Below are positions 7,360-21,207 of a stretch of 31,497 nucleotides of DNA, piece after piece. Made by a program: the position numbers and the translations under genes. The first letter of the stretch is position 1; each line of letters begins with the position of its first letter. Under the pieces are notes generated by a model. It was not told the origin of the DNA. It was given only the letters and a program-made list of their open reading frames with translations, and did not search any database. Source of the stretch: a virus; the IMG/VR virus record IMGVR_UViG_3300041585_000057, positions 1 to 31,497 of that record; one strand, 5' to 3'.

Positions 7360-7430
7360 TGCGTGAAGGTGTAACGGTTGCATTACTGGCTCATAACCAG
7401 CAAGGGTGGGTTCGAATCCCAAACACGCAA
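7360..7430 (+). tRNA. tRNA-Met-like (anticodon CAT)
   Basis: A cloverleaf can be drawn. The acceptor is TGCGTGA with ACACGCA, where the innermost pair is an A-A mismatch. The D-arm is GTGT/GCAT with GG in the loop. The anticodon loop CTCATAA gives CAT, on a stem with one A-C terminal mismatch. The T-arm has the loop TTCGAAT on a GTGGG/CCCAA stem with a G-A outer mismatch. CCA is not encoded. CAT could mean elongator Met, initiator Met, or Ile2 if the C is lysidinylated. The three stem-end mismatches suggest either a partly decayed gene or a phage tRNA tolerated by the host. Confidence 0.8.
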
Positions 7431-7460
7431 CAAAAACTAATCCGTAAGGCATGATATGTT

Positions 7461-19030: not shown

Positions 19031-19040
19031 AAACTCAAAC

Positions 19041-19069
19041 ACCCGCTATTAATTTAGCGGGTTAATTTT
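19041..19069 (+). terminator. Terminator-like hairpin
   Basis: A perfect 8-bp stem, ACCCGCTA (19041-19048) with TAGCGGGT (19055-19062), is followed by a weak T-run (TAATTTTA). It sits only 7 bases before ATG 19077, so it may reduce rather than block transcription or hide the start. Confidence 0.55.
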
Positions 19070-19467: not shown

Positions 19468-19497
19468 AAAACCGCTGATTATTTTTAGCGGTTTTTG
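19468..19497 (+). terminator. Terminator fused to a promoter
   Basis: AAAACCGCT (19468-19476) pairs with AGCGGTTTT (19487-19495). The tract ends TTTTTG, giving a -33 TTG (19495-19497) 22 bases before the -7 box at 19520. The 'AGCGGTTTTTGT' arm is identical to that of the terminator at 7301-7329. Confidence 0.85.
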
Positions 19498-19519
19498 TAT
19501 TTTTATTAAATAAAATGAT

Positions 19520-19527
19520 TATATTTG
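19520..19527 (+). promoter_or_regulatory. Promoter of structured leader and replication genes, TATATTTG
   Basis: TATATTTG at 19520-19527 with TTG at 19495-19497. The predicted start near 19531-19533 puts about 100 nt of structured RNA before the initiator gene. Confidence 0.75.
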
Positions 19528-19530
19528 TAC

Positions 19531-19623
19531 TTGAATATTTGGTAGAGCGCTTATTCAATAGAAAAAATTATTAAAAAGCCTTACAATGCGGAGCTCTACC
19601 TCCAATTTGTAGGGCATTTTTTA
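19531..19623 (+). ncRNA. Structured leader RNA with terminator and overlapping pairing
   Basis: Two long-range pairings interleave. A: GGTAGAGC (19541-19548) pairs with A' GCTCTACC (19593-19600). B: GCCTTACAA (19578-19586) pairs with B' TTGTAGGGC (19607-19615), 9 bp with one G-U, directly followed by ATTTTTT (19616-19622), an intrinsic terminator. The order A-B-A'-B' means the two helices either form a pseudoknot or exclude one another. This suits an attenuator controlling the initiator gene at 19635, or a free small RNA of about 90 nt. The A arm is also the same as a common tRNA D-arm sequence. Confidence 0.65.
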
Positions 19624-19634
19624 TATAAAAAATT

Positions 19635-20381
19635 ATGAAGCAAAACGTTAATTTTATAGAACATTATAAGTCAATTAACTTTAAAATGGTAGAAGATAAT
19701 CGATTGTCTCCTTTGCATATTTCTTTATACAATGGATTGTTTTTAATTTGGAATGAGTGCGGTTTTGAAACTGAACTTTCAATTAATAGAAATGATGTGA
19801 TGAAAGTGTCAAAAATAGGTAGTGCAAACACCTACATTAAGTTAATGAAAGAGTTGCATCTATTTGAATATATATGTTATAAACCTTCTTTTAATCCATT
19901 AAAAGGGTCTAAAGTTGAGATGTACATATTTGATAAAGGTACTGATAAAGGTACTGTTAAAGGTAGTAGTAAAGGTACTGATAAAGGTGGTGATAAAGGT
20001 GGTGATACCTTATATAAACTATTAAACTCTAAAACTATTAAACTATTAAACAATAACTTTGAGATTGTTAATTTGAATTTAGAAAAATGGATTTTAAACG
20101 AAAATAAAAAAGAGATTTTAATAATTCCAGAAAATTTAAAATCAATTTGGGATTTATGGATTGAATACCGAAAAGCAAAAAAAATAAAAAATTACGCTGG
20201 AGAAAAATTTGAACAAATGGCAATTGACAAATTAATTAAATTTTCCAACAGCAACCCGATCACAGCAAAACAAATAATAGACGAATCCATTACAAACTCT
20301 TGGACTGGATTTTTTGAACTAAAAAACTTAAACAATAATCAAAATGGAAAACATGAATTTACACGAACTAGGAATCGTTAA
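19635..20381 (+). CDS. Replication initiator with internal repeat array
   Basis: A 248-aa protein. Residues 1-98 look like a winged-helix DNA-binding domain (LSPLHISLYNGLFLIWNECG, ELSINRNDVMKVSKIGSANTYIKLMKEL). Residues about 99-123 are the four-residue repeat DKGT/DKGG, encoded by six 12-bp DNA repeats. Residues about 165-235 form a helical C-terminal domain (DLWIEYRKAKKIKNYAGEKFEQMAIDKLI) like those of DnaD/Lin-type primosome proteins. This resembles the layout of lambda O, where the origin lies within the initiator gene. Its end overlaps the loader gene by 38 nt. Confidence 0.75.
   Translation: MKQNVNFIEHYKSINFKMVEDNRLSPLHISLYNGLFLIWNECGFETELSINRNDVMKVSKIGSANTYIKLMKELHLFEYICYKPSFNPLKGSKVEMYIFDKGTDKGTVKGSSKGTDKGGDKGGDTLYKLLNSKTIKLLNNNFEIVNLNLEKWILNENKKEILIIPENLKSIWDLWIEYRKAKKIKNYAGEKFEQMAIDKLIKFSNSNPITAKQIIDESITNSWTGFFELKNLNNNQNGKHEFTRTRNR
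19932..20003 (+). repeat. Six 12-bp iteron-like repeats (candidate origin)
   Basis: Six direct repeats of 12 bases with consensus G-W-TAAAGGT-R-S-T start at 19932, 19944, 19956, 19968, 19980 and 19992. They encode the DKGT-type linker of the initiator. Next to them, 20011-20052 is an AT-rich block with four AACTATTAAA-like repeats, a plausible unwinding element. Confidence 0.7.
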
Positions 20382-21207
20382 GCCAGATTCAATTGGATTT
20401 AATCGATATTCTTTTTTAATGACTTTACAAGCGGAAGATTTAACAGATTTAGAACAGCAACAAATTTTAACGTACAATCAATTACACAATCCAACGCGTG
20501 AGCAACAGGAAAAACTAAAATTATATTTAGAGAAAGTACGAAATCCTGAAATTGAAAAAGAATTTGAATTTACAAAAAAAACATTGTGGATTGAATTTTT
20601 AAAAACTTTTAAGGAATTAAACAAAGTTGATTTTATGCAAACATCCGAAAGTTTGGAAAACATTAAACCGCTTTTCTATTATTTTTTAAAAGATGAGCAA
20701 TTTTTATTTTGTAAAAATGTTCATTCAATGTCAAAGCCTTCGTTTGAAAAAGGACTTTTAATAATCGGGAATTTTGGCAATGGCAAAACATCCGTAATGT
20801 TAACCTTTGAAAAAATATTTCAAGGTTTAAAAAATTATAGTTTTAAAAGTTTTACGGCAAATGAAGTCGTAAATTTATTTGAATCAATTGGAAATGATTT
20901 AAATTCTAATTTAACTAAAATGGAGTTTGAAAGAAAAATGAATCATGGATGCAGGTATTTTGATGATATTAAAACCGAAAGACACGCATCTAATTTTGGT
21001 AAAGTAAATTTGTTTAAAGAAATTTTGGAAACAAGAGAAAAAAACGAAGTTAAAACTTATTTGACTGCAAATTTTAAAGCAGGATTTCCTGATGATGTTT
21101 TTGCTGCAGTTGAAGAATTTGGAGATAAATACGGTTGCCGAGTTTACGACAGAATTTTTAAAATGTTTAATATCGTTGTTTTCAACGGCAAATCTTTTAG
21201 ATCATGA
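20344..21207 (+). CDS. DnaC-like helicase loader (AAA+ ATPase)
   Basis: A 287-aa protein. Walker A 'GNFGNGKTS' (142-150), Walker B 'YFDDI' (205-209) and a sensor 1-like 'TYLTANF' (about 235-241) mark an AAA+ ATPase of the DnaC/IstB group. About 130 N-terminal residues are helical and likely bind helicase or initiator. It overlaps the initiator gene, the same pairing as lambda O-P or host DnaB-DnaC systems. It presumably loads the host replicative helicase, as none is encoded here. Confidence 0.85.
   Translation: MENMNLHELGIVKPDSIGFNRYSFLMTLQAEDLTDLEQQQILTYNQLHNPTREQQEKLKLYLEKVRNPEIEKEFEFTKKTLWIEFLKTFKELNKVDFMQTSESLENIKPLFYYFLKDEQFLFCKNVHSMSKPSFEKGLLIIGNFGNGKTSVMLTFEKIFQGLKNYSFKSFTANEVVNLFESIGNDLNSNLTKMEFERKMNHGCRYFDDIKTERHASNFGKVNLFKEILETREKNEVKTYLTANFKAGFPDDVFAAVEEFGDKYGCRVYDRIFKMFNIVVFNGKSFRS

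Follow-up and report, generated by a model that had tools for sequence, protein, structure and literature searches.

A covarying RNA leader with a predicted self-kissing terminator, probably a cis attenuator, before the replication genes of Bacteroidota phages

The replication initiator gene of the virus record IMGVR_UViG_3300041585_000057 (31,497 nucleotides, analysed as a whole and called the window below) is preceded by a short leader with interleaved complementary segments and a T-run. This raises the question of whether the leader is a genuine RNA element and, if so, how it acts on the gene behind it. A sequence-only reading had placed two helices here in A-B-A'-B' order, GGTAGAGC with GCTCTACC and GCCTTACAA with TTGTAGGGC, followed by TTTTTT ahead of the initiator, and all of these letters, as well as the initiator ATG, were found in place. 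It regarded the A-A' helix as either weakening the terminator or forming a pseudoknot.

Parts of the leader and their covariation

The interleaved pairing is real; homologues keep the layout with different letters. The terminator-like hairpin before the replication initiator, proposed by the same reading, also stands as a sequence match, with a G+C-containing hairpin (9-bp P2) and then six U. Folding revealed two helices that the reading had missed, P1 and P3. The elements (Table 1) follow in the order TAnnTTTG box, P1 with A in its loop, linker, P2, P3 with A' as its loop, U-tract and start codon, and A and A' together form the kissing helix K, the end bases of A' overlapping the P3 strands. 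TAnnTTTG is the consensus of the -7 promoter box in Bacteroidota. In the window P2 ends 19 nt 5' of the ATG at 19635, and the median distance to the start codon across members of the element is 18 nt. When 19500-19640 was shuffled 3000 times with dinucleotides preserved, one shuffle reached the score of the native sequence, and at that threshold the leader element was the sole match on the + strand of the whole window.

Table 1. Features of the leader and its downstream genes in the window, and extra copies of the element in other phage genomes.
Feature	Position	Strand	Basis or remark
Box TATATTTG	19520..19527	+	fits TAnnTTTG, the Bacteroidota -7 promoter box; predicted start a few nt 3'
P1 5' strand TTGAATA	19531..19537	+	folding; member-wide support, permutations
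A, GGTAGAGC, hairpin 1 loop, 5' strand of K	19541..19548	+	sequence; covariation
P1 3' strand TATTCAA	19552..19558	+	folding; permutations
A/U-rich linker, presumably single-stranded	19559..19577	+	sequence
P2 5' strand GCCTTACAA, predicted terminator stem	19578..19586	+	sequence, folding, covariation
P3 5' strand GGAG	19590..19593	+	folding; permutations; covariation in alignment A5
A', GCTCTACC, terminator apical loop, 3' strand of K	19593..19600	+	sequence; covariation
P3 3' strand CTCC	19600..19603	+	folding; permutations; covariation
P2 3' strand TTGTAGGGC	19607..19615	+	sequence, folding, covariation
U-tract TTTTTT, predicted RNA 3' end	19617..19622	+	sequence
O-like replication initiator gene	19635..20381	+	phrog_678, E 2.4e-11
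DnaC-like helicase loader gene, same operon, 3' of initiator	20344..21207	+	phrog_3277, E 2.5e-11
Extra copy, Freya_1	L165 12734		before MBL-fold gene
Extra copy, phi13:2	L180 3662		before gene for 149-aa protein
Extra copies, G403	L190 13666; L191 11808	minus (L190)	before genes for 87-aa protein and DNA methyltransferase (named by its DPPY motif)

Compensatory changes, the test by which the sequence-only reading could have fallen, are present in both helices it described, and all four helices (P1, P2, P3 and K) covary. Against swapped partners, none of 20000 permutations was as good for P1 and P3 (z 6.9 and 7.6), which were outside the search criteria; the permutation set comprised 32 representatives, some of them related, and the z-values somewhat overstate independence. 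K and P2 gave z 16.7 and 19.1, gains that are partly circular because both were search criteria. An alignment of 23 related leaders had 10 of 24 pairs changed on both sides, with 38 both-side-changed cells observed against 9.4 for shuffles, and structures slid along it fell to 39-50% paired. All three P3 pairs covary in alignment A5, and the modelled strand contains G-U pairs. Near-identical leaders differ mostly by compensatory pair changes: in L103 and L113, whose initiators are 96.8% identical, the leaders differ mainly at compensated pairs (GGTAGGA/TCCTACC vs GGTCGGA/TCCGACC; GTG/CAC vs GAG/CTC). The overlapping ends of contig G402 (L285 586-706 and L286 13989-14107), with blocks 88% and 99% identical, appear to represent two haplotypes of a single locus. 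Their leaders are alike in box, P1 and linker and differ in K, P2 and P3, each of which is still paired, and the initiators have been exchanged in their N-terminal part too. The comparisons thus show two hairpins with complementary, covariation-supported loops: P1, P2, P3, K and the fixed placement from box to start codon are established at the level of sequence. The pseudoknot option of the sequence-only reading was thereby borne out and sharpened to a kissing-loop contact between two hairpins.

The internal loop between P2 and P3 has a recurrent form in part of the family. AGUA stands opposite GAA in 9 of 34 members (L001, L069, L070, L090, L091, L099 and relatives; about five lineages) against 0.3 expected from shuffles, an arrangement that resembles the loop-E (bulged-G) pattern. 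Potential tandem G-A pairs, a weaker signal, occur in 18 members vs 12 expected; both patterns were tested after being noticed, and the test was not blind. The window's own internal loop has neither the loop-E nor the tandem G-A pattern. The leader L008 (1010-1165) is divergent, with an A-A' helix of about 16 bp, an extra 8-bp helix inside it and a predicted fold that omits the terminator stem; it could represent a long-range helix that competes with the terminator.

Members of the element and the genes behind them

About 60 distinct leaders from Bacteroidota phages carry the element, a count of distinct sequences of which many come from one related group, so that independent lineages are fewer. 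The initiator's nearest relative (IMG/VR 3300048849_000181, 62% identity) shares the leader layout with different letters, and the leader of Polaribacter phage Freya_1 likewise has this layout in other letters. Scanning loci fetched via the initiator and the helicase loader with a descriptor of A-B-A'-B' plus T-run placed the element 5' of the replication genes of Cellulophaga phages phi13:2, phi19:3 and phi46:3, Tenacibaculum phage Gundel_1, Flavobacterium phage 11b, Olleya phage Harreka_1, the elemo phages, Polaribacter phage P12002L and several IMG/VR records. The same scan found no comparable element in Riemerella phages RAP44 and CRP6 and one Acinetobacter phage.

When the promoter box was added to the descriptor, the surroundings of 80 DUF6291-type initiators gave 48 matches on the coding strand vs 3 on the opposite strand (427 kb each), and nearly all of the 48 end right before the initiator. 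Most loci without a match apparently have coding sequence immediately upstream; in several others the element is present but its box is imperfect. A stricter descriptor matched 14 times in phage DNA (554 kb) and once, weakly and in AT-rich sequence, in 800 kb from two Bacteroidota host genomes; in another 1.08 Mb from phages it matched 9 times. Nearly all members have the box at the matching place, at a sharply defined distance from A, and it was a search criterion in some scans and not in others; the T-run, as a search criterion, is present in members partly by selection. The linker is found in all members. Locus L082, where A' abuts B' about 500 nt upstream of the initiator, was left out of the set.

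Searches by letters found little. A DNA pattern search of viral contigs with the window's letters gave no match, as expected if the letters of the element vary, and a nucleotide search of phages returned weak, partial matches only. No convincing leader of this type stands before the chromosomal initiator relatives that A2 retrieved, most of which follow a small HTH gene. The likeness of TTGGTAGAGCGC to a tRNA D-arm was dismissed as coincidence, relatives having other letters there. The window does contain a tRNA-Met(CAT) gene, at 7360-7431.

Initiators of several types stand 3' of the element (DUF6291, O-like, HTH_36 and DnaD-like), and scans of whole genomes yielded extra copies away from the replication leader, with K letters particular to each copy (Table 1). 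Since loci were sampled around replication genes, the share of other downstream genes is underestimated. Such variety of downstream genes and initiator types makes a single initiator protein unlikely as the common ligand, which would be a host or shared factor if there is any, and the several unrelated gene types fit a cis control module. By its sequence contexts, the element is a portable leader module.

Some neighbouring features of these loci deserve mention. In Cellulophaga phage phi46:3 (L066 5150-5954) the RNA is kept and is followed by an HNH endonuclease gene that replaces the initiator start, with pieces of the C-terminus of an O-like initiator behind it. The helicase loader gene of the window is adjoined by a gene for a small protein with the DnaA C-terminal DNA-binding domain (PF08299; 21204-21572), and similar genes adjoin the replication genes of Freya_1, phi13:2, Gundel_1 and P12002L. 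Upstream of the leader, simple terminator-like hairpins at 19040-19066 and 19470-19497 flank a 122-aa gene; a separate transcription unit may therefore start at the initiator leader.

Proposed mode of action and alternatives

We consider the element a real RNA element that probably limits the output of the next gene. The leader at 19531-19622 is one member of this conserved element, here called a 'self-kissing terminator', and it is rather likely that it works as a cis attenuator which yields an RNA of about 85 nt and allows some read-through. Transcription would start just 3' of the TATATTTG box, and P1, the 5' hairpin, would display A in its loop. The second hairpin would be an intrinsic terminator, formed by P2 and the U-tract and capped by P3; the apical loop of P3 is A', the pairing partner of A. 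The majority of transcripts would end at the U-tract and free the compact RNA, and a minority would read through and express the downstream gene. K would dock the loop of the terminator onto the 5' hairpin of the same transcript, and may thereby tune termination, in either direction, and stabilise the freed RNA.

With a median of 18 nt from P2 to the start codon there is no room for a further promoter, so the gene needs read-through of the terminator, either from this promoter or from one upstream, and this need makes cis attenuation the simplest reading. Promoter box and terminator are predicted from consensus and sequence matches; if the promoter call is right, the initiator would be expressed only by read-through. 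Some points speak against this explanation: transcripts from upstream would cross the terminator too, the 16-bp A-A' helix of L008 fits the proposed fold poorly, and the internal loop of the window does not have the pattern common in many relatives.

The part of the sequence-only reading in which A-A' replaces or prevents the terminator was not supported. Because P3 makes A' the apical loop of the terminator itself, the kissing contact and the terminator most likely coexist, and a mutually exclusive switch is less likely. Such a switch, in which A-A' forms first and blocks the terminator until capture of A restores termination, seems improbable for the element as a whole, and would be possible above all in L008 with its long A-A' helix. 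It would profit from A' leaving the polymerase ahead of B' and from the strength of K, about -9 to -18 kcal/mol in duplex folding, but the exclusive scheme has no need of P3, whose covarying pairs make A' the loop of a complete terminator, and A pairs with the terminator loop and with neither strand of its stem. We regard it as unlikely, though less so than this switch, that the main product is the freed RNA of about 85 nt, serving as a decoy or trans-acting small RNA, and that the gene is expressed by leak-through in the style of type III toxin-antitoxin loci. The compact fold, the loop-E-like module of many members, the RNA's own promoter box and terminator and the precedent of the abiF locus for the order of RNA, terminator and read-through gene would suit this role, but the loops have no conserved letters for a shared target or protein site, and within one phage every copy has its own K letters. 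An attenuator would free an RNA of that size as well, and so it fits the small-RNA option of about 90 nt in the sequence-only reading too.

We give little credence to the possibility that the freed RNA reports the copy number of the phage genome. The A and A' loops of one leader RNA would then also kiss their counterparts on further copies, and with more copies this kissing in trans would alter termination and lower the initiator. This would amount to copy control in the antisense style that needs no antisense gene, the loop letters providing specificity from phage to phage. More generally, the leader may affect phage DNA copy number, as proposed in the sequence-only reading. Control by an antisense RNA, as in pT181-type plasmids, would agree with a terminator directly before a replication initiator and with hairpin loops able to kiss, and yet is very improbable: one RNA carries both kissing partners, the pairing scheme differs from that of pT181, and at the member loci the -7 box is not enriched on the opposite strand near the leader, within about 250 nt downstream of A. 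Hardly any weight is left for inverted repeats that act as DNA, as protein sites or part of an origin. Replication genes adjoin the element in most members, in keeping with such repeats, but G-U pairs in the modelled strand fit only RNA, the letters of the element vary freely, and further copies stand before MBL-fold, methyltransferase and hypothetical genes.

Relation to known RNA systems and significance

Among known leaders, those of the ColIb-P9 type have an upstream hairpin whose loop pairs with a segment further 3', close to where the initiator starts; translation of the initiator depends on this pseudoknot and is controlled with an antisense RNA. The present element also pairs an upstream hairpin loop with a segment further downstream near the initiator start, but here the pairing sits in the terminator and an antisense promoter is not apparent. 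Rep pseudoknot leaders of the ColIb-P9 type figure among the titles cited in PMC10724649.

The rep attenuators of the pT181/pIP501 type share with the element a leader with a 5' hairpin, kissing loops and an intrinsic terminator before the replication initiator, in pT181-type leaders immediately before its start codon, as here (PMC4878617). In those systems an antisense RNA is the kissing partner and the antiterminator engages the 5' half of the terminator stem, whereas the present leader contains both kissing partners itself and A pairs with the loop of the terminator instead of that stem half. The abiF RNA and RCd22 of type III toxin-antitoxin loci (PMC12373285) offer the same succession of promoter, small RNA, terminator and a gene reached by read-through. 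Unlike at abiF (RF03085), the next gene is a replication initiator, the conserved abiF motif is absent and the model gave no match. Hairpins P1 and P2 of the guanidine-II riboswitch are likewise linked by a kissing-loop contact (PMC9300104). In contrast to that riboswitch, the second hairpin here is a predicted terminator and the loop letters vary freely among members, which argues against a small-molecule site. The Rfam 15 covariance models matched only the tRNA at gathering scores in the window, and in eight loci with the element or near it gave only chance-level matches elsewhere (E up to 5). We found no description of this element, or of such leaders in Bacteroidota phages, in the open-access literature. 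Leader attenuators are a known kind, and the layout of this one appears to be undescribed.

The finding would add a strongly covarying RNA element without an Rfam entry to the poorly studied phages of Bacteroidota, at the point where their replication operons begin. A terminator loop docked on the 5' end of its own transcript is a layout apparently undescribed in the literature that we found. Natural alleles whose differences are mostly compensated pairs, together with several isolated phages whose hosts are known, make its function directly testable, and the element is a possible source of attenuators for Bacteroidota genetics.
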